Shown here piece after piece: positions 1,076-10,199 of a DNA stretch of 20,256 nt (positions are counted from its first letter, which is position 1; the number at the start of each line of letters is the position of its first letter). The notes beneath the pieces are model-generated. The model did no database searches and had not been told where the DNA came from. It saw only the letters and a list, made by a program, of their open reading frames with translations. Both the position numbers and the translations under genes were made by a program. The stretch spans positions 1 through 20,256 of the IMG/VR virus record IMGVR_UViG_3300044940_000108; one strand, written 5' to 3'. The stretch comes from a virus.

Positions 1076-1800
1076 TAAGGCAATCGTCGTGCCTAGCGGC
1101 AGAGAACAACCTGATCGGTTCGGGCTATTTCAACGCCGACGGATTCCTCACCGTGAAGCCAAACAGCCCGTCTGTACCAGGAGAGGGGAACGGACTGCTT
1201 CAGACTGGCCTGTGGTACTCGATCAAGGCAAGAAACGGCGGCTTGCAAGACAGTGATAAGGACGCGATCAAGAGAATCACCGCGATGTGCATGCATGACA
1301 GCCATCCGATTCTGTGGCGCTCTCCACACAAGAAGAACCCGGACGACGATCAGCAGCATGATGATTATTGGGGGTGGCTGGCGGCGTGCTATTTCGCCGA
1401 GTCGGATTTCCCGGAGAGGTTTCACCAGTTCTGTGATGATCACCAGTGGATGGTGGACGTGCAGCAGCCATATCATCCAAGGATCAAGTATCTCTTTGAG
1501 AGATTCCCGGGCTTCAAAACTTTCGTGAAGCTCTGTATTCACAATCGCAAGCCGACGCCGATGGAGTGCGTCACGTTCGCTCTACTTATCTGCTTTTGGT
1601 CGATCAAGCCGAATCAAAGCGATAGCTGTATGCGTAGTTACTGCCGTATTGCTGTTGCCTCTGATCGCTCGCTTTTATGCAGGCTTGCGAGCATTCTCTG
1701 GTTTAAGCGCGTGCGCAAGCTATGGGGCAGCGTTGGGAATTCTTTTGCTCCGTACTTCCAGGGGAACAACCATCCGATAACCTGGTACGACTGGAATTAG
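1072..1800 (+). CDS. Phage protein of unknown function, Cys-rich, HDDY and HP motifs
   Basis: This 242-residue protein overlaps the upstream stop by 4 bases. It resembles, from memory, an uncharacterised phage protein group with a conserved GNGL..TG near residue 40, an acidic H-D-D-x-x-G centre (QQHDDYWGW) and a C-terminal HP motif (NNHPITWYDWN). It contains an unusual number of cysteines for its length. A hydrophobic stretch (ECVTFALLICFWSI) followed by a basic segment could be a membrane contact. No enzyme class can be assigned. It is the last gene before the octapeptide-repeat array, whose first start lies only 11 bases downstream. Confidence 0.6.
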   Translation: MIRQSSCLAAENNLIGSGYFNADGFLTVKPNSPSVPGEGNGLLQTGLWYSIKARNGGLQDSDKDAIKRITAMCMHDSHPILWRSPHKKNPDDDQQHDDYWGWLAACYFAESDFPERFHQFCDDHQWMVDVQQPYHPRIKYLFERFPGFKTFVKLCIHNRKPTPMECVTFALLICFWSIKPNQSDSCMRSYCRIAVASDRSLLCRLASILWFKRVRKLWGSVGNSFAPYFQGNNHPITWYDWN

Positions 1801-1811
1801 TTAGAGGACTC

Positions 1812-2381
1812 ATGAAAACAATCATCGTTAAAACACAAGAGGAGCTGGACGCACTTCCGGCGAGTTTTAAGAAATTTACCACAATTGAGATTCGAGGAGG
1901 CACTTTAGGTGCGCCAATAATTATCAGAATGAAGAGGGAAAACTCCCGCGTCATGCTGCGGGAAAGCTCCCGCGCTGAGCTGTATGGAAGCTCCAGTGTT
2001 GAGCTGTGGGAAAACTCCAGTGTCGTACTGCGGGACAATTCCAGAGCTGAGCTGTATGGAAATTCAAGCGCCGTTCTGTGGGACAGCTCCCGCGCCACGC
2101 TGTATGTAGAATCCAGAGCCATTCTACGAGAAAAATCCAGAGCTGAGCTGAGGGAAAGCTCCAGCGCCTTGCTGCGAGAAAACTCAAACGCCATGCTTTG
2201 GGATAACTCCAGTGCAGTGCTTTATGGAGATTCCTACGCTGAGCTACGTGGAAAATCTAGTGCTGAGATTCTGGAAAACTCCCGAGCCACGCTGTGGGGA
2301 AAATCCAATGCCGTGTTCCGGGACAGCTCCCAGTGCCATGCTGCGGGAAAATTCCCACGCCGAGCTGTATGGAAGCTCTAG
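1812..2381 (+). CDS. Octapeptide-repeat protein A, N-terminal part (frameshifted gene)
   Basis: First of four tandem paralogs. The start is ATG 1812, not the further-upstream in-frame start, because this ATG matches the paralogs' starts and has AGAGGA just before it. Residues 1-42 form the shared N-terminal cap (TQEELDALP, then FTTIEIRGGT, then APIIIRM). Octapeptide repeats of the form x-(N/S)-S-x-A-x-L-x follow, the consensus for a beta-helical or beta-roll solenoid. The frame leaves the repeat register after DSS at about 2330 and ends 17 codons later at TGA 2379-2381. An extra C in the CCC at 2329-2331 explains this: removing it joins the frame to the 2338-2745 segment and gives a 310-residue protein with 27 repeats. 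Function is unknown. Confidence 0.75.
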   Translation: MKTIIVKTQEELDALPASFKKFTTIEIRGGTLGAPIIIRMKRENSRVMLRESSRAELYGSSSVELWENSSVVLRDNSRAELYGNSSAVLWDSSRATLYVESRAILREKSRAELRESSSALLRENSNAMLWDNSSAVLYGDSYAELRGKSSAEILENSRATLWGKSNAVFRDSSQCHAAGKFPRRAVWKL

Positions 2382-2586
2382 CGCCACTCTGTGGGAAAAC
2401 TCCAATGCCGAGCTGCATGGAGAATCCAGCGCCACACTGCGGGACAACTCCCACGCTATACTGCATGGAAACTCCAGCGCCGTGCTGCGTGGAAGATCAA
2501 GCGCCGATCTGCATGAAGGCTCCTACGCTGAGCTATGGGGAGAATCCAGCGCCGATCTATGGGAAAAATCCCCTGTCAGTGCTTAC
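1938..2586 (+). repeat. 24-bp coding repeat array A (27 units)
   Basis: Twenty-seven imperfect 24-bp units encode octapeptides such as ENSSVVLR, DNSRAELY and GNSSAVLW. The register is continuous except for the one-base insertion at 2329-2331. The final unit (EKSPVSAY) changes into the conserved C-terminal cap. Confidence 0.9.
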
Positions 2587-2745
2587 GATTTTTCTGTTGT
2601 GAATGTTTTTTCAGGAGATGCCACCATTGAGCATCTAGCCGATCACTCAACTGCATCACTTTATGGAGTGAAACCAAAGATTAAAAAGAAAGACAAAACT
2701 GCTCGGGTAGTGAAAGTACCAAAACGCGCTGATGGGGATAAATGA
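2338..2745 (+). pseudogene. Octapeptide-repeat protein A, C-terminal part (out of frame with its start)
   Basis: This segment continues the repeat register of gene A in the next frame, from SAMLR at about 2332 to TGA 2743-2745. It holds the last ten or so octapeptides and then the C-terminal cap shared with paralogs B and C (DFSVVNVFSGDATIEHL, then a Lys-rich tail with KTARVV). It has no ribosome binding site of its own that I can see; ATG 2338 is only a convenient boundary. It would be translated only if the upstream frameshift is a sequencing error, is bypassed by ribosomes, or if re-initiation occurs. The stop overlaps ATG 2742, six bases before the likely start of paralog B. Confidence 0.65.
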
Positions 2746-2747
2746 GC

Positions 2748-3227
2748 ATGAAATCAATAATCAAATCAATAATCATTAGAACACAAGAGGAGCTGGATGC
2801 ACTTCCTGCTAAATTCGACGAATTCACCACAATAGAGATTCGCGGAGGAACCGATACTGATCCTATTATCATTCGAATGAATAGGGAAAATTCCAGAGCT
2901 GTATTATATGGAAATTCCCACGCTGAGCTGTGGGGAAGCTCAAGCGCCGTGCTGTGTGAAAACTCCCGCGCCGTGTTGCATGAAAATTCCAGCGCTGAGT
3001 TATGGGAAAACTCCAGCGCTGAGTTATGGGGAAGATCCAGCGCTGAGCTGCGCGGAAATTCACGCGTCAGCGCTTACGATTTTTCTATTGTGAATGTTTT
3101 TTCAGGAGATGCCACCATTGAGCATCTAGCCGATCACTCAACTGTCTTATTTCATAGCGTGAATCCCAAGATTGAAAAGAAAGACGAAACCGCTCGGGTA
3201 GTGAAAGTGAGGACTACGCTGAGGTGA
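2748..3227 (+). CDS. Octapeptide-repeat protein B (8 repeats)
   Basis: This is the shortest paralog, 159 residues from ATG 2748. That start is preferred over ATG 2742 because all paralogs begin at agcATGaa and the GGGG at 2734-2737 is then well spaced. The cap begins with a duplicated KSII, caused by a 12-bp tandem duplication at 2751-2774, and continues as in the paralogs. It is followed by eight octapeptides (for example GNSHAELW, ENSSAELW) and the C-terminal cap (DFSIVNVFSGDATIEHL). The last residues (VRTTLR) are read from what is intergenic spacer downstream of paralog C, so the stop has been lost and replaced relative to C. Function is unknown; a solenoid fold is inferred. Confidence 0.8.
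   Translation: MKSIIKSIIIRTQEELDALPAKFDEFTTIEIRGGTDTDPIIIRMNRENSRAVLYGNSHAELWGSSSAVLCENSRAVLHENSSAELWENSSAELWGRSSAELRGNSRVSAYDFSIVNVFSGDATIEHLADHSTVLFHSVNPKIEKKDETARVVKVRTTLR
2751..2774 (+). repeat. 12-bp perfect tandem duplication at the start of gene B
   Basis: The unit aaatcaataatc occurs twice back to back and adds four residues (KSII) to the N-terminal cap of paralog B compared with A, C and D. Confidence 0.9.
2886..3077 (+). repeat. 24-bp coding repeat array B (8 units)
   Basis: Eight 24-bp units, from ENSRAVLY to GNSRVSAY. Two consecutive units encode the identical octapeptide ENSSAELW apart from the neighbouring GRSS unit. Confidence 0.9.
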
Positions 3228-3237
3228 AGAAACGAGC

Positions 3238-3786
3238 ATGAAAATAATCACAATTAAAACACAAGAACAACTAGATAAACTACCGTTGAAGTTCGACGAA
3301 TTCACCACAATAGAAATCCGCGCAGGAACCGATGGAGCACCTATTATCATCCGAATGAATAGTGAAAATTCAAGAGCTGTATTATATGGAAATTCCCACG
3401 CTGAGCTGTTGGGAAGCTCAAGCGCCGAGTTATGGGAAAACTCCCGTGCGGTACTTTGGGACTGCTCCCGCGCGGCGCTGTGGGACAATTCCCGCGCCGA
3501 GCTGTGGGGTAACTCCAGGGCTGATCTGTGCGACAACTCCAGCGCTGAGTTATGGGGAAACTCCAGCGCTGAGCTGTGCGACAACTCCAGCGCCTTGCTA
3601 CGGGAAAATTCCAGCGCTGAGCTGCACGGAAATTCACGCGTCAGCGCTTACGATTTTTCTATTGTGAATGTTTTTTCAGAAGATGCCACCATTGATTATC
3701 TAGCCGACCACTCAACTGCATCACTTTATGGCGTGAGGCCCAAGATTGAAAAGAAAGACGATACAGCTCGGGTAGTGAGAGCATAA
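3238..3786 (+). CDS. Octapeptide-repeat protein C (12 repeats)
   Basis: A 182-residue paralog with a 42-residue N-terminal cap, twelve octapeptides and a 44-residue C-terminal cap (DFSIVNVFSEDATIDYL, then KIEKKDDTARVV). The start ATG 3238 is preceded by gaggtgaagaaacgagc, a leader nearly repeated in front of paralog D, so the duplicated unit evidently included the ribosome binding site and spacer. Repeats are dominated by N-S-S/R-A-E-L with W, Y, C or R at position 8. It has no signal peptide or membrane segment. As in the paralogs, regular Ala and Leu every eight residues suggests a stacked beta-solenoid. The biological role is not known. Confidence 0.8.
   Translation: MKIITIKTQEQLDKLPLKFDEFTTIEIRAGTDGAPIIIRMNSENSRAVLYGNSHAELLGSSSAELWENSRAVLWDCSRAALWDNSRAELWGNSRADLCDNSSAELWGNSSAELCDNSSALLRENSSAELHGNSRVSAYDFSIVNVFSEDATIDYLADHSTASLYGVRPKIEKKDDTARVVRA
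3364..3651 (+). repeat. 24-bp coding repeat array C (12 units)
   Basis: Twelve 24-bp units from ENSRAVLY to GNSRVSAY. DNSSAELW, GNSSAELC and DNSSALLR are close copies of each other. The last unit matches the last unit of array B. Confidence 0.9.
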
Positions 3787-3812
3787 GACTACGCTGAGAT
3801 GGAGAAACAAGC

Positions 3813-4664
3813 ATGAAAACAATCACAATTAAAACACAAGATGAGCTGGATGCGCTCCCGACGAAGTTCGACGAATTCACCGTTATTGAGATTCGCGGAG
3901 GAACCCATGACGCACCCATTATCATCCGAATGAAGAGGGAAAACTCCCGCGTCGTGTTGCGGGAAAACTCCCGCGCTGAGCTGTATGGAAGCTCCAGTGT
4001 TGAGCTGCGGGACAGCTCCAGTGCCGCTCTGCGTGACAGCTCCCACGCTGAGCTGTGGGAAAGATCCCACGCTGAGCTGTGGGAAAGATCCCACGCTGTG
4101 CTGCGAGAAAAATCCAACGCCATGCTGCGGGAAAACTCCCGAGCCACGCTGTGTGAAGACTCCAGAGCCGAGCTTTATGGAAACTCCCGCGCCGTTCTGT
4201 GGGAAAACTCCCGCGCCGTTCTGTGGGAAAACTCCCGCGCCGTTCTGTGGGGCAGAACCCAGGCTGAGCTACGGGATAATTCCAGAGCTGAGCTGTATGG
4301 AAATTCCCGCGCCGTTCTGTGGGACAGCTCCCGCGCCACACTGTATGTAGAATCCAGAGCCGATCTATGGGGAAACTCCAGAGCCATTCTGCGAGAAAGC
4401 TCCCGCGCCCTGCTGCGAGAAAAATCCAGCGCGGTGCTTCGGAACAACTCTAGCGCCATGCTGTGGGGCAATTCCAGCGCCGTGCTGCGAGAAAACTCCA
4501 ACGCCATGCTTTGGGACAGCTCCCGTGCAGCACTGCGGAACAACTCTAGCGCCACGCTGTATGGAGAATCCAGAGCCGTGCTGCGAGAAAACTCCAGAGC
4601 TGAGCTTCGGGAAAACTCCAGCGCTGTGAAGCGGGACAATGCCATCATTGAGGTTAAGAAATGA
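3813..4664 (+). CDS. Octapeptide-repeat protein D (29 repeats, no C-terminal cap)
   Basis: This is the longest intact paralog, 283 residues. Residues 1-42 are the shared cap (TQDELDALP, FTVIEIRGGT, APIIIRM). Residues 43-274 are 29 octapeptides with no interruption, and the protein then ends after DNAIIEVKK. The DFS...NVF...TARVV cap of A, B and C is missing, so either it was lost or this paralog uses another way to close the solenoid. A block of repeats (DNSRAELY, GNSRAVLW, DSSRATLY, VESRADLW) nearly copies repeats 5-8 of protein A, which suggests recombination between the genes. The start at ATG 3813 is preceded by gatggag. The stop overlaps ATG 4661. Confidence 0.82.
   Translation: MKTITIKTQDELDALPTKFDEFTVIEIRGGTHDAPIIIRMKRENSRVVLRENSRAELYGSSSVELRDSSSAALRDSSHAELWERSHAELWERSHAVLREKSNAMLRENSRATLCEDSRAELYGNSRAVLWENSRAVLWENSRAVLWGRTQAELRDNSRAELYGNSRAVLWDSSRATLYVESRADLWGNSRAILRESSRALLREKSSAVLRNNSSAMLWGNSSAVLRENSNAMLWDSSRAALRNNSSATLYGESRAVLRENSRAELRENSSAVKRDNAIIEVKK
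3939..4634 (+). repeat. 24-bp coding repeat array D (29 units)
   Basis: Twenty-nine units in unbroken register. The variable protein positions are 1, 2, 4, 6 and 8 of each octapeptide; Ser3, Ala5 and Leu7 are nearly fixed. Confidence 0.92.
4181..4252 (+). repeat. Three near-identical consecutive 24-bp units inside array D
   Basis: Units at 4181-4204 and 4205-4228 are identical, and 4229-4252 differs only in the last base. This is what recent unit-by-unit expansion looks like, by slippage or unequal recombination. Confidence 0.9.
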
Positions 4665-4848: not shown

Positions 4849-4881
4849 GAACTAGAAATCAGAAGAAGGGGCTGGTGCGGG

Positions 4882-5856
4882 GTGACTGATGGCATGGATA
4901 TTCTTAAGCTCTCCGGTATCTCTATCTGCACGGGCGCAGGCGGACTCGACCTTGCGCTTGAAAGATGGGTTAAGCCTGTCGCCTACTGCGAAATCGACCC
5001 TTACGCCCAGGGAGTTATCCTCTCTCGTATCCGAGACGGAAGATTACCCGATGCACCGATATGGGATGACCTCACCACACTCAAGGGAGATATGTTCCCA
5101 AGAGTTGAAATCCTCTACGGAGGACCGCCGTGCCAGGACTTCAGTCTTATTGGAGATGGAGCGGGCCTGGGAGGCGCTAGAGGCCGACTTATGCTTGAAA
5201 CCCTCAGACTCATTGGCGAGTGCCGACCACGCTTCGTCTTGCTGGAGAACGTCCCAGGCATCGTTAGACGAGGACTCGAACAGATTATCCTGGAACTCGA
5301 TGCACTTCGGTATGATGCGCGATGGACTATTGTATCAGCCGAAGAGGTTGGCGCTCCGTTCTTCGGTAAGAGGCTCTTCATCCTGGCCAAGGCCCGTGGC
5401 GAGCGATACGGGAACCCAGGCGAACAAGAGCGTTCATCCTGGAGCGAAGGAAAGACCGACCTTGGGTGCAATTGCAAAAACTTGGGGAATGTGGCCGAGG
5501 CCATTGGCTTCGGACGCGGAGAAAGGTGGTCCGAATCAAACACGGGGCGGGGAGCCAACAATGGCGAGCATAGCTGCCAATTGGAAGCGAGAGCAGAGCT
5601 CACCAGAAAGGCAACGATGGTCTCGTCCGACCGCAACCGACTGGAAAGACGGACACTCACCAAAAAGGCATGGAAGGTTCTTGCCGAGAATCGGTATTCA
5701 GGCCCAGGAGAGTGGCCATCGTGGCTACCTGAGCCCGCTCTTCCACGCGGCGCTGATGGGTTGGGATTCCGATCACACGCAATTAGATGCAGTGGGAATG
5801 GCGTGGTTCCTCTCCAGGCGGAAGAGGCGTTCAAAAGGCTGCTAGGAATTGATTGA
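4882..5856 (+). CDS. DNA (cytosine-5-)-methyltransferase
   Basis: Transfers a methyl group from S-adenosylmethionine to C5 of cytosine in DNA. In a phage this usually protects the genome from host restriction. Motifs appear in order: motif I ICTGAGGLDLALE near residue 15 (SAM binding), motif IV GGPPCQDFS with the catalytic Cys near residue 84, motif VI ENV near 122, a degenerate motif VIII (FFGKRLFIL, without the usual QxRxR) near 163, and motif X GNGVVPLQA near 307. At 324 residues it is of normal length, with a target-recognition region at roughly 175-280. The start is GTG 4882, with AAGGGG at 4866-4871; ATG 4894 is a possible alternative. No restriction endonuclease is next to it. The same DNA carries a second long open frame (4889-5845), discussed as a finding. 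Confidence 0.9.
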   Translation: MTDGMDILKLSGISICTGAGGLDLALERWVKPVAYCEIDPYAQGVILSRIRDGRLPDAPIWDDLTTLKGDMFPRVEILYGGPPCQDFSLIGDGAGLGGARGRLMLETLRLIGECRPRFVLLENVPGIVRRGLEQIILELDALRYDARWTIVSAEEVGAPFFGKRLFILAKARGERYGNPGEQERSSWSEGKTDLGCNCKNLGNVAEAIGFGRGERWSESNTGRGANNGEHSCQLEARAELTRKATMVSSDRNRLERRTLTKKAWKVLAENRYSGPGEWPSWLPEPALPRGADGLGFRSHAIRCSGNGVVPLQAEEAFKRLLGID

Positions 5857-5866
5857 GGATAACACA

Positions 5867-6019
5867 ATGCAAGAATACTACGATGCACTCACTGTCGCCA
5901 TTATCTGCTTCGCGATGGTTGGATTGGCTGTGACCATCTGCTTTATCTACACTGCGATTATGTATTTTCTTGATAAAGATTCGTGGAGTAGCGATATTAA
6001 AAAGCATGAAAATCACTGA
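5867..6019 (+). CDS. Small single-span membrane protein, holin candidate
   Basis: This 50-residue ORF starts with ATG 5867 behind TGAGGA (5853-5858). It has one long hydrophobic span at about residues 8-34 (LTVAIICFAMVGLAVTICF, continuing to IMYF) and a charged C-terminal tail ending KKHENH. Its end overlaps the start of the lysozyme gene by 14 bases, the place where phage holins normally sit. A holin would oligomerise in the inner membrane and time the release of the endolysin. The assignment rests on size, topology and position only; a small membrane protein of other function is possible. Confidence 0.6.
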   Translation: MQEYYDALTVAIICFAMVGLAVTICFIYTAIMYFLDKDSWSSDIKKHENH

Positions 6020-6473
6020 TGATTGCATTGATCTGATCGCCCACTTCGAGGGGCTGTACCTGAAAGCGTATTTATGTCCCGCGAAAATATGGACGATCGG
6101 AATTGGAACAATCAGATATCCGAACGGCACTCCAGTGCGCGAGGGAGACATCTGCACGAAGGAAGAGGCTGAAGAGTGGATGCGCCTAGAGCTGGAGCAC
6201 GATGTCGTTCCAGCGATTGAGCGCCTGGTCAAAGTTCCCCTCAATGACGGTCAATTCGGCGCATTATGCTCGCTGATCTACAATATCGGCCAGGGCAATT
6301 TCGCTCAGTCCACACTTCTTAAAAAGCTGAACGCGGGAAACTACGTGGAGGCGGCGGATCAGTTTTTGGCTTGGGTAAAAGGTGGAGGACGGATTCTACC
6401 AGGACTTGAGCGAAGGCGGCGCGCCGAGCGTAATATGTTCGTGGGAAAAGATTGGGCAGAGTTTAAGGCATGA
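6006..6473 (+). CDS. Endolysin, GH24 (T4-type) lysozyme
   Basis: Cleaves the glycan strands of peptidoglycan to lyse the host. From ATG 6006 the protein has 155 residues, typical of the family. The active-site segment reads HFEGLYLKAYLCPAKIWTIGIGT: catalytic Glu, then Cys at the place of the usual Asp nine residues later, then Thr six further on. The E-C-T variant is frequent in phage lysozymes. The later conserved segment is NDGQFGALCSLIYNIGQGNF, and the C-terminus has the usual LPGLERRRRAE. No signal or SAR segment is present at the N-terminus, so export should depend on a holin. An upstream in-frame TTG is rejected because ATG 6006 starts the canonical fold. Confidence 0.92.
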   Translation: MKITDDCIDLIAHFEGLYLKAYLCPAKIWTIGIGTIRYPNGTPVREGDICTKEEAEEWMRLELEHDVVPAIERLVKVPLNDGQFGALCSLIYNIGQGNFAQSTLLKKLNAGNYVEAADQFLAWVKGGGRILPGLERRRRAERNMFVGKDWAEFKA

Positions 6474-8098
6474 TTCATCCTCGCCTCTTGAATCAGATTT
6501 TTGAGAATCCAGAGTTTATCATTATTCAGGGCGATAATATTTCTTATCTGGTCCGAGATATTATCAACATGAACTGGTGGAACACCTCTGGTGTTTTGGT
6601 CGGGTACAAGAATAACAAGCGTATATGTTTTGATTTCACGGAGACGCAGAAGAGAATCGCTGTCCAGTTAAAAGAATTCTATAGGGTAAGTAGAATAAAA
6701 GATAAAAATGAAAGAAAATTCAGGGACGAAATAGTTGCCTATATCAACGGGGCGATAACAAAGCTTGAGCAGCTCAATGCTTACTCGATGCTTTCCCGAG
6801 CGAATCCGTCTCAATATTTTCACAGGAAAGATGGGACAATGACATGGGTGGACTGTACATCGCGCGCCACCTATGCGGCGAAATACGTTTTCCAGAATGG
6901 ATTTGTAGACTTCGACGGAAAATGCAGGGTGCTTGGAGCATACGAAATAATCTCATCGATTGAATCGGGAGAGTGCGAAGATCTTGGGATTAAGGGTTAT
7001 TTCGATGATGGCGAAAATCAAGTGAAAGAGGAGATATTTTCACAAAAGCACGTTCAGCTTACGGTCGAGGAATGGGTAGAAAAACTTGGCGTTAATATCA
7101 TTCCGGAGCGCGAGTGGCTGTTGAGAGATATCAGTAAGATAAAAACCGATCCGTATAAGATTCATGAGGCGGAAATGGTTCGCCGCGGTCTGGCTAGAGG
7201 GGTCAACGAGGCTCTTTACGGGTACAAGACAATGGCAACTTTAGCTACTAGCGAGATAATAATCTCAAGCCATAGCAGTGCAAGCGACGCAAGCAGTGTA
7301 AGTAGCGCAAGCAACGCAAGCCGCGCAAGCAACGCAAGCAGTGCAAGCAATGCAAGCTGCGCAAGCCGCGCAAGCGACGCAAGCTGCGCAAGCCGCGCAA
7401 GCGACGCCGGAGTCACTGGATATAATGGCGAATCGTGGGAGATGTGTAAGCACGCAATTACACGTCCGGATCACCTTTATTATCCGCCAGTCTTCCGAAA
7501 AAACATTTTTGCAATTGCGGGAAACTGGAAAATAGATCATCGAATCACTTCACTCGCTAAGCTTGGTTGGTTTGATCCATTCTCAGGCCACGGGACAAGT
7601 CCTCTTTATGCGAAGCGTTACGGCATTAGATATCTTGGGTTCGACACGAACAAAAAAGCATTTGATGAATATCTGAATATCATCCAGGAGGAGCTTTCGA
7701 ATTCTCCTGGCGCGAATGTCGAGGTTCGCTGCGCCGACTCAACGGTTTTCGATCCCTCACTAGAAGGGAAATTTGATCTCTGCTACACAAGTCCACCGTA
7801 CTTCAACTTCGAGGAGTACGGCGGAAACACGGCGCATTATGAAGGGTGCGAGTCGTATGATGATTTCCACGAGAAGATCACGAAGCCGGTATTCCGTAAT
7901 GTCTGGCGATATTTAGTTCCAGGCTCCACGCTCGCGCTCCAAACGGAAAAAGATAGGAGCGCCAAGAAGAGATGGGTTGAGGTGATTTCTTCCCTTGGAT
8001 ATGAGCTACAGGAAGATGGATTGGCGGGGCGCGAAAAAGTGAAATACTCGACTCAATCAAAGCGCGACCAGACTCTGCTTGTGTTCAGGCGCGGGTGA
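6470..8098 (+). CDS. TSPPY-type DNA amino-methyltransferase with N-terminal domain and x-A-S repeat insert
   Basis: A 542-residue protein with three parts. Residues 1-265 form a domain I do not recognise (contains SQYFHRKDGTMTWVDC and a helical VEEWVEKLGV stretch). Residues about 270-313 are a low-complexity run of x-Ala-Ser triplets. Residues 314-542 are a Rossmann methyltransferase: motif I FDPFSGHGTSP at 368-378, an acidic end of the next strand (YLGFDTN), and motif IV TSPPY at 440-444, which is typical of N4-cytosine and some N6-adenine enzymes. Motif I precedes motif IV. It probably methylates phage DNA; the target base and site cannot be read from sequence. The start overlaps the lysozyme stop by ATGA. 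The unknown N-terminal domain may set specificity. Confidence 0.75.
   Translation: MIHPRLLNQIFENPEFIIIQGDNISYLVRDIINMNWWNTSGVLVGYKNNKRICFDFTETQKRIAVQLKEFYRVSRIKDKNERKFRDEIVAYINGAITKLEQLNAYSMLSRANPSQYFHRKDGTMTWVDCTSRATYAAKYVFQNGFVDFDGKCRVLGAYEIISSIESGECEDLGIKGYFDDGENQVKEEIFSQKHVQLTVEEWVEKLGVNIIPEREWLLRDISKIKTDPYKIHEAEMVRRGLARGVNEALYGYKTMATLATSEIIISSHSSASDASSVSSASNASRASNASSASNASCASRASDASCASRASDAGVTGYNGESWEMCKHAITRPDHLYYPPVFRKNIFAIAGNWKIDHRITSLAKLGWFDPFSGHGTSPLYAKRYGIRYLGFDTNKKAFDEYLNIIQEELSNSPGANVEVRCADSTVFDPSLEGKFDLCYTSPPYFNFEEYGGNTAHYEGCESYDDFHEKITKPVFRNVWRYLVPGSTLALQTEKDRSAKKRWVEVISSLGYELQEDGLAGREKVKYSTQSKRDQTLLVFRRG
7277..7408 (+). repeat. 9-bp coding repeat (gcaagcNNY), x-Ala-Ser triplets
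   Basis: About fourteen 9-bp units encode SAS, DAS, NAS, RAS, CAS and similar triplets. The gca-agc part is almost invariant, while the third codon varies between agt/agc, gac, aac/aat, cgc and tgc. It forms a flexible linker in the middle of the methyltransferase. Confidence 0.9.
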
Positions 8099-8874: not shown

Positions 8875-9120
8875 ATGCGAGATCATGAATTCGATGCACT
8901 AGCAAAACTTCTCCGCATGAAGAGCGGGCCGGCAAGGGAGGCCGCCCGCCTCGTACTCGTGCACAGATTTAAAGTCGGCGAAGCCGCCTGGGCCACAGGG
9001 GTAAGTCAGCCATCGGTTAGCAATGCGGTCGCGAGATGCAGAAAGGGGATCGCTCTAGTCAGGATTGCTGCAGGGAAGTCAATGAGCAGCGCGATGTGCA
9101 ACGGTTTCAGGCGGGAATAA
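8875..9120 (+). CDS. KorA/TrfB-like helix-turn-helix regulator
   Basis: From ATG 8875, with AGGAGG at 8863-8868, this encodes 81 residues. The core matches the TrfB/KorA DNA-binding family: an N-terminal EFDALAKLLR, the signature AREAARLVLVHRF, then a helix-turn-helix at about residues 33-54 (VGEAAWATGVSQPSVSNAV). KorA of IncP plasmids is a dimeric repressor binding palindromic operators; related small proteins occur in phages and prophages. Likely targets here are its own promoter region or the 8240 promoter. The C-terminal dimerisation part of plasmid KorA appears short or different. The last 14 bases overlap the convergent phosphoesterase gene. A longer in-frame extension upstream to 8785 would overlap the previous gene and is rejected. 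Confidence 0.75.
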   Translation: MRDHEFDALAKLLRMKSGPAREAARLVLVHRFKVGEAAWATGVSQPSVSNAVARCRKGIALVRIAAGKSMSSAMCNGFRRE

Positions 9121-10063
9121 AGCGCGGGCCGTACTCGTCGATCCAACCGAATCCCGGCGTCCACGCGACAATCCGCTGCGGCGTGTGAGAAAGCGCTTTC
9201 GACTCCGGATCCCCAGCCAGCCCTGCATTGAGCTCCCATAGTGTCTGCCCGCGCGCTCTTCGAAAGACCACGCCGCCGACGTGAGCGTGACCGCATACGG
9301 CATTCATGAGCGCATAGTCTCGATGCTGGCCAAGGCGAGAGTAGTGCCCGTGAATAAATTCAATGCCTTCCACGATGTACTCCTCGCGCGGATCCGAGAT
9401 GAGCCGGACACCATCGAAGGTCATCAGGCGGTCCAAGTACACCGAGACTACTCGCTCAAGCGAAGGCAGGCTCTCCAGCGTCCGCTTGAGCGGGCGAATG
9501 TCGTGATTCCCCTTGAGCTGCACGCACTCTGCATCTGGGCAGATGGAGCGTAGCGTGAGCCACATCTTTTCAGCGCCGCTTCGCGCCATTTCTTCCTCTT
9601 GAGCGGGCGTGTAGATATTGTGTGAGCGAGGAAATTTCGCGTGGCAGTACATGTCATAAAGATCGCCGATCTGAATGATACGCTTTGGCTTATGCTTCTC
9701 CGCGAATTTGTATGCCGCCTCGAGAACATACTGATTCACGAATGGGAAGTGCGTGTCCGGGATGATGAGCGTCGGTGTGTATGATATCTTCTCCGCCGGC
9801 TCTCTCGGGGCGTACTCGTCGAGAACTTCTGACAGATCGCGTCGAAATATTTCATTAGTGAGCCCAGACTTATTCCGCTTGGTCCTTCTTTCGTCGTAGG
9901 TTTCGAGTCCAGCGGCCTTGAGAAGCTTCGTGTATGAGCCGAATAGAATGGTGATCTGATAGAAGCTCCCTTTCATGTTCGATATGAATTCCGTTTTGGT
10001 CGGCACGCGCCCAAGCTCTGATGCAAGCTGTCTCACTTGGGCGACCAGGTCATGCTCATTCAT
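9107..10063 (-). CDS. Metallophosphoesterase with N-terminal helical (homing-endonuclease-associated-type) domain
   Basis: A calcineurin-like phosphoesterase of 318 residues, one of the only two genes on the - strand. All metal-binding motifs are present and ordered: DTH (103-105), GDLYD (133-137), GNHD (185-188), HGH (238-240) and GHAH (258-261), so it should be an active two-metal enzyme. Its substrate (nucleic acid, nucleotide or protein phosphate) is not predictable. Residues 1-60 (LVAQVRQLASELGRVPTKTEF, then SYTKLLKAAGL) match the short helical module associated with HNH homing endonucleases, probably a DNA-binding element. The start is ATG at 10063-10061, with AAGGAG properly spaced; an upstream TTG is too close to it. 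It is convergent with the KorA-like gene. Confidence 0.85.
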   Translation of the reverse strand: MNEHDLVAQVRQLASELGRVPTKTEFISNMKGSFYQITILFGSYTKLLKAAGLETYDERRTKRNKSGLTNEIFRRDLSEVLDEYAPREPAEKISYTPTLIIPDTHFPFVNQYVLEAAYKFAEKHKPKRIIQIGDLYDMYCHAKFPRSHNIYTPAQEEEMARSGAEKMWLTLRSICPDAECVQLKGNHDIRPLKRTLESLPSLERVVSVYLDRLMTFDGVRLISDPREEYIVEGIEFIHGHYSRLGQHRDYALMNAVCGHAHVGGVVFRRARGQTLWELNAGLAGDPESKALSHTPQRIVAWTPGFGWIDEYGPRFIPA

Positions 10064-10199
10064 CGTCAAACTCCTTTTTGTTTTTCTTATTTTCTTGCCA
10101 AGTGAGCGTGAAAGGCATTGAGGGTGGGACAGATTTCTCTACTCGCTCGAAGCAAAGGCAGGCGTCGCCGTCATCTGAAGGCTGGCCACCAATGTACAT
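10056..10199 (-). CDS. Small protein upstream of the phosphoesterase
   Basis: A 47-residue ORF whose stop overlaps the phosphoesterase start (ATGAATGA), as expected for translational coupling. It starts at the complement of 10197-10199, with GAGG shortly upstream. An earlier in-frame ATG at 10265 would give 69 residues but has no ribosome binding site. The N-terminus has GGQPSDDGDACLCF, the middle PPSMPFTLTW, and the C-terminus is Lys-rich. I do not recognise it. It is supported by arrangement rather than by similarity. Confidence 0.45.
   Translation of the reverse strand: MYIGGQPSDDGDACLCFERVEKSVPPSMPFTLTWQENKKNKKEFDDE

Follow-up and report, generated by a model that had tools for sequence, protein, structure and literature searches.

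Two overlapping reading frames at the methyltransferase locus

The window, that is, the whole stretch of DNA analysed here (20,256 bases of a virus record), encodes a terminase-like protein, SU10-like portal, capsid and adaptor proteins, and a C5-cytosine methyltransferase chain (frame A) whose ORF wholly encloses a second long ORF (frame B), read in the +1 frame of A at an offset of 7 nt (Table 1). The first-pass annotation had reported a 318-codon shifted frame running from ATG 4889 through the cytosine methyltransferase gene, and both this frame and all of the strings quoted from its product were confirmed. The GTG start of A was placed by reference to relatives of the same clade, ATG 4894 being the alternative. 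An ATG at +7 of A recurs as the start of B in this clade, most members of which begin B a few bases into A (ATG at +7, or at +4 or +10, opening with MAWI or similar), with GTG as the start in L279 and L005; since the two starts adjoin, B overlaps nearly all of A in the clade. The GGGGTG at 4879-4884 could serve B as a ribosome-binding site.

Table 1. Features of the overlapping frames A and B, in window positions
Feature	Position	Strand	Remarks
Possible ribosome-binding site of A, AAGGGG	4866..4871	+	Read from the sequence
Frame A, C5-cytosine methyltransferase chain, motifs I-VIII and X	4882..5856	+	GTG 4882 to TGA 5854-5856; 324 codons
Frame B, nested ORF, proposed target-recognition and motif-IX chain	4889..5845	+	ATG 4889 to TAG 5843-5845; 318 codons
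A motif I, TGAGGLDL	4930..4953	+	Coordinates and alignment to M.HaeIII
A motif IV with catalytic Cys, GGPPCQD	5119..5139	+	Coordinates and alignment to M.HaeIII
A motif VI, LLENVPG	5239..5259	+	B over the same bases reads SCWRTSQAS (5237-5263)
A YDARW	5311..5325	+	Overlapped by B MMRDG from 5312
B MMRDGLLYQP	5312..5341	+	Recurs among B relatives as GMMRNGxxYxL
A motif VIII region, EEVGAPFFGKRLFI	5341..5382	+	Pfam match ends here
B putative recognition-region unit 1, SWPRPVASD	5381..5407	+	Overlaps A LAKARGER (5383-5406); WPTP-type units enriched in frame B
B putative recognition-region unit 2, MWPRPLASD	5489..5515	+	Sequence coordinates
B putative recognition-region unit 3, RWSRPTATD	5615..5641	+	Sequence coordinates
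B motif IX equivalent, LSPLFHAALMGW	5729..5764	+	Divergent copy; A over the same bases reads PEPALPRGADGL (5728-5763)
A motif X, CSGNGVVPLQ	5788..5817	+	phrog_1008 positions 294-320 match here

Frame A matched PF00145 (3.5e-29) and phrog_363 (6.8e-50), the former only over model positions 3-168 (of 324). The Pfam coverage stopped at motif VIII, as did comparisons with M.HaeIII and M.HhaI, and motif X was then found further on. Thus A holds motifs I, IV (PCQ), VI (ENV) and VIII in order, plus X, but not the recognition region and motif IX that monomeric enzymes of this family carry in the same chain. At the corresponding place, B carries WPTPxAxD units followed by LNPxWVEWLMG[FYW]P. The base-by-base register that had been proposed between the shifted frame and the methyltransferase motifs (ENV with WRTSQ, YDARW with MMRDG, LAKARGER with WPRPVASD, and PEPALPRGADGL with LSPLFHAALMGW) was correct.

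The window's own motif IX in B (LSPLFHAALMGWDSDHT) lacks the near-invariant proline that normally follows MG[FYW] in relatives, and since this typical residue is missing, activity of the window's own gene copy appears less certain than the statement made below for the family. Two indels close together near 5755-5790 might have explained this odd motif, but the spacing of both A and B there matches that of relatives, and the difference was left as divergence.

B matched phrog_1008, which is named a DNA methyltransferase, over residues 60-299 and most of the model (positions 26-281 of 329; 3.9e-14, with a second figure of 4.1e-15). From position 294 the same profile runs on into motif X of frame A, so that some members of the family appear to hold B and motif X in one frame; in the window they lie in two different frames. 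With the window's B as query, tblastn and pattern searches returned no relatives, and these were reached through frame A (L003).

A long antisense ORF (5115-5888) was rejected as a further gene, its openness being that expected (3 stops in its frame over the gene versus 2.8 expected from the codons of A) and no Pfam or PHROG family being matched. Directly upstream of the methyltransferase (1722-4664), consecutive ORFs (1722-2381, 2212-2745, 2742-3227, 3238-3786 and 3813-4664) contain arrays of a 24-base (8-residue) repeat, e.g. ENSRAVLW, in up to about 29 copies, and three of them weakly match phrog_15773. A 542-aa ORF at 6470-8098 contains a 9-base tandem repeat (7274-7402), and its N6/N4 DNA methylase match is confined to the C-terminal part (436-499). 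On the minus strand, 9107-10069 encodes an N-terminal homing-endonuclease-associated HNH repeat with a weak calcineurin-like phosphoesterase match.

Conservation of frame B with the protein of frame A held constant

In the window, none of 5000 synonymous-codon shuffles of A left B open through its 318 codons (P<1/5000), and the +2 frame was as interrupted as these shuffles predict. A divergent set of 71 genes, each representing one cluster after greedy clustering at 55% (the full gene set has a median pairwise identity of 38%), held 24 stops in B, compared with 298 expected from a gene-wide shuffle or 227 from a segment shuffle, and B was fully open in 57 of the 71, where 2.9 were expected. 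The other four frames contained 0.96-1.10 of the expected stops, i.e. no depletion.

A cross-validated B profile, from which the motif-IX site had been removed, scored the real B above all 40 shuffles of the same gene in 69 of 71 cases (median 147 versus 73 bits). Frame C also exceeded its shuffles in 55/71 genes (103 versus 56), and part of the profile signal is thus general nucleotide conservation. For the window itself, the scores were 111.8 versus 50.5 +/- 10.4 shuffled for B, and 39.1 versus 25.5 +/- 10.2 for frame C. In the variable region, 91 WPTP-type units were present in frame B where 7.1 +/- 2.6 were expected, and there were no B stops where 67 were expected. The reverse shuffle, using synonymous codons of B, predicted 154 stops in A where none exist, showing that A is also kept open through the variable region. 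Translation-start signals for B were found to be selected family-wide, a Shine-Dalgarno sequence with a start codon in frame B occurring at nt 110-240 in 33 of the 71 genes (11.6 +/- 2.9 expected), with frames A and C near expectation.

The ratio of amino-acid changes in B to those in A (70 pairs) fell from 2.24 before motif IV to 2.04 between IV and VI, 1.56 between VI and VIII and 1.00 within the variable region, rising again to 2.15 beyond motif IX; a ratio of 0.52 at motif IX was set aside as biased, the loci having been fetched with a motif-IX pattern. Taken alone, the variable-region value of 1.00 could also reflect relaxed selection, but the stop, profile and variable-region tests argue against this. 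Taken together, the results show each frame to be open and conserved to a degree that the coding needs of the other do not explain.

As a sample chosen without regard to B, 80 viral loci were fetched by frame-A alignment only (motif IV and IWDD region patterns); these are the 80 best matches, and the result covers this methyltransferase subfamily rather than all viral C5 methyltransferases. Among the 76 full-length A ORFs, B was uninterrupted between motifs IV and X in 73 (2.7 expected), and the set held 3 B stops over this interval compared with 267 expected. The motif-IX pattern occurred in B in 65/76 (0.1 expected) and in A in 0/76, and PTP motifs numbered 143 versus 27 expected. Likewise, in all seven phage methyltransferases picked on frame A alone, B was open and its variable region contained WPTP-type units, two of the seven having motif IX in frame A.

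The double frame recurs in phages of cyanobacteria, Porphyromonas, Gordonia and Rhizobium, in phages from environmental genomes, and on plasmids of Leptospira, Rhodoplanes, Paenibacillus and Bacteroides. In L003, the viral relative found through frame A, B is open too, with WPTPTA and LSPLFVEAIMGYPPEWT. The VEWLMG[FY]P codon pattern was found at 121 sites in IMG/VR, of which 118 are read in frame +1 relative to the covering methyltransferase ORF, and in bacterial and archaeal genomes 110 of 119 sites were so placed; at least three of the remaining genomic sites lie near the ends of sequence stretches. The WPTPTAxD/LNPxxVEWLMG database group thus represents a recurrent overlap with methyltransferase genes. 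This bears on the two readings offered by the first-pass annotation, a recurring shadow of dcm-type genes or true use of both frames. The group does recur over such genes, nearly always although not at every site, but it is not a mere shadow, since B is conserved far beyond the demands of A; it is the use of both frames that the shuffling tests support.

In Paenibacillus phages (TADHANA_54/55) and in E. coli phage K1ind2 (ORF29, a methylase, and ORF28, Mte8-like), both frames have been deposited as genes, the nested CDS matching phrog_1008 at 1.6e-74 and 1.1e-64. In these pairs B starts inside A, whereas in the window it starts beside the start of A.

Two further relatives showed unusual arrangements. 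In L083, a distance of about 1 kb separates two VEWLMG sites (821-843 and 1863-1885); both overlie a methyltransferase match, and the gene may thus be present in tandem copies. On the reverse strand of L241 (about 1144-2774), the methyltransferase gene is apparently interrupted near motif IV by an HNH-like insert, and a single 500-codon ORF seems to contain both the beginning of A and all of B.

A proposed two-polypeptide enzyme and its alternatives

We consider it highly probable that A and B are the two polypeptides of a single C5 methyltransferase of the M.EcoHK31I kind, A being the catalytic chain and B the target-recognition and motif-IX chain, read in frames one base apart. Chain A would supply AdoMet binding, catalysis and motif X, and its stretch between motifs VIII and X, which lacks motif IX, would probably be for the most part a by-product of B. 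Chain B would supply the target-recognition region, in the form of the WPTPxAxD units, together with motif IX; its first half is largely constrained by motifs IV-VIII of A and may help B to bind its partner. Followed along the gene, the functional path would thus run from A to B and back to A. We infer that the B protein is produced from this locus, partners A and sets the specificity: the two chains would associate, with B reading the DNA target and completing the small domain with motif IX. Phage methyltransferases methylate phage DNA against host restriction, and the enzyme may be expected to protect its phage in this way. That B is very probably the target-recognition and motif-IX part absent from frame A goes beyond what the first-pass annotation had proposed.

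Natural variants support this proposal, and the simplest reading of them is a single enzyme with parts that can be encoded in either frame. In L137 (Candidatus Megaera), motif IX lies in frame A immediately before motif X, and Pfam covers the frame-A protein end to end (model 3-322), its 75-residue C-terminal fragment with motif IX matching model positions 275-322 (E 0.0083). Motif IX is also in A in L014, L262 and L264, relatives from Gordonia and Mycobacterium phages. In L145, A goes no further than motif VIII, and the 369-aa B bears the recognition units together with both motif IX and motif X, its second half matching phrog_363. In L059, L253 and L140, a stop interrupts A past motif VIII, and B is intact.

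Several observations count against the assignment of A and B as two chains of one enzyme. AlphaFold2 gave no confident fold for B alone (two models, mean pLDDT 58.6 and 61.9, too weak for fold searches), and profile and single-sequence searches of the PDB with B proteins returned no methyltransferase match. Furthermore, the recognition domain of M.EcoHK31I is predicted to lie in the large chain (PMC3404938). The proline missing from the window's motif IX and the share of the profile signal that frame C also shows weigh in the same direction.

Among the alternatives, programmed frameshifting, in which ribosomes would shift from A to B after motif VIII and perhaps back before X to produce one fused enzyme, would join the functional path in a single chain, and the frame junctions do vary among relatives. 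Nevertheless, we regard it as unlikely, as B has its own selected Shine-Dalgarno and start sites far upstream of the recognition region, starts beside A in the window's clade, and is conserved and open well before motif VIII. It is more doubtful still that B is a functional protein unrelated to methylation (e.g. anti-restriction or regulatory) which merely overlaps the methyltransferase gene. Such a protein would fit the failure of B to match any Pfam or NCBIfam family, as well as the PDB result, but motif IX is absent from A exactly where B has it, some relatives carry it in A, the B of L145 extends to motif X with a C-terminal half resembling phrog_363, and nearly all sites found overlap a methyltransferase ORF. 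Finally, that A is the sole gene, with the openness and likeness of B being only conserved methyltransferase motifs read in +1, agrees with the base-by-base alignment of the motifs and with the excess similarity of frame C, yet it is scarcely credible for the locus and is refuted at the family level by the shuffling tests, as, with the protein and codon usage of A fixed, the stops, WPTP units, motif IX and start signals of B depart strongly from expectation where other frames do not, and B survives where A is interrupted.

Relation to known two-chain methyltransferases and wider meaning

The target of M.EcoHK31I is YGGCCR, and its small chain was reportedly described in 1995 as starting inside the large one in another frame. 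At the locus described here, likewise, selection acts on two ORFs that share their DNA but are read in different frames. In M.EcoHK31I, a two-polypeptide C5 methyltransferase, the large chain carries motifs I-VIII and X, and only motif IX lies in the smaller chain (PMC3404938). The likeness of the proposed A/B enzyme to it, drawn from this published motif arrangement, is that motif IX lies in a chain other than that with I-VIII and X, which holds at the family level, the window's own motif IX being divergent. Unlike M.EcoHK31I, the conserved recognition-like region here is in B rather than in the large chain. A further difference is the extent of the overlap, B running over almost the full length of A in the window's clade. 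The split of M.AquI falls within its variable region and leaves a catalytic half and a recognition half on two chains (PMC3404938). The division into catalytic and recognition halves is shared with M.AquI and other split C5 methyltransferases, and L145 has this very division. In contrast to M.AquI, whose small chain holds motifs IX and X, motif X stays in A in the window; the M.AquI feature is present in L145.

The two-subunit principle is thus known already, and nested ORFs of this kind are annotated in a few phages. Judged against the open-access literature, what is new is the scale of the phenomenon, an overlap that spans the full length, the placing of the recognition region in B, and variants that switch frame. 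In that literature we found nothing on point for overlapping methyltransferase genes in phages and no published explanation of the nested ORFs of the Paenibacillus phages and K1ind2, 'Mte8' appearing only as a mention within a phage gene list.

It is an evenly balanced possibility that the C5 methyltransferases of phages and prophages include a large class whose members, although annotated as single genes, are in fact double-coded two-chain enzymes, with the recognition/motif-IX domain in the +1 frame and repeatedly switching frame. If so, few long same-strand gene overlaps in tailed phages would be as widespread, and this one would be largely unrecognised. Of the two frames, genome pipelines usually retain a single one, as on plasmids L136 and L138, for which A alone stands in a gene table that is incomplete by its own description. 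Should B be the specificity subunit, cloning A alone would yield inactive or mis-assigned enzymes, and target prediction from the variable region of A would be meaningless. As motifs IX and X lie in different frames in different relatives, the family also offers a large natural data set on the origin and resolution of overlapping genes.
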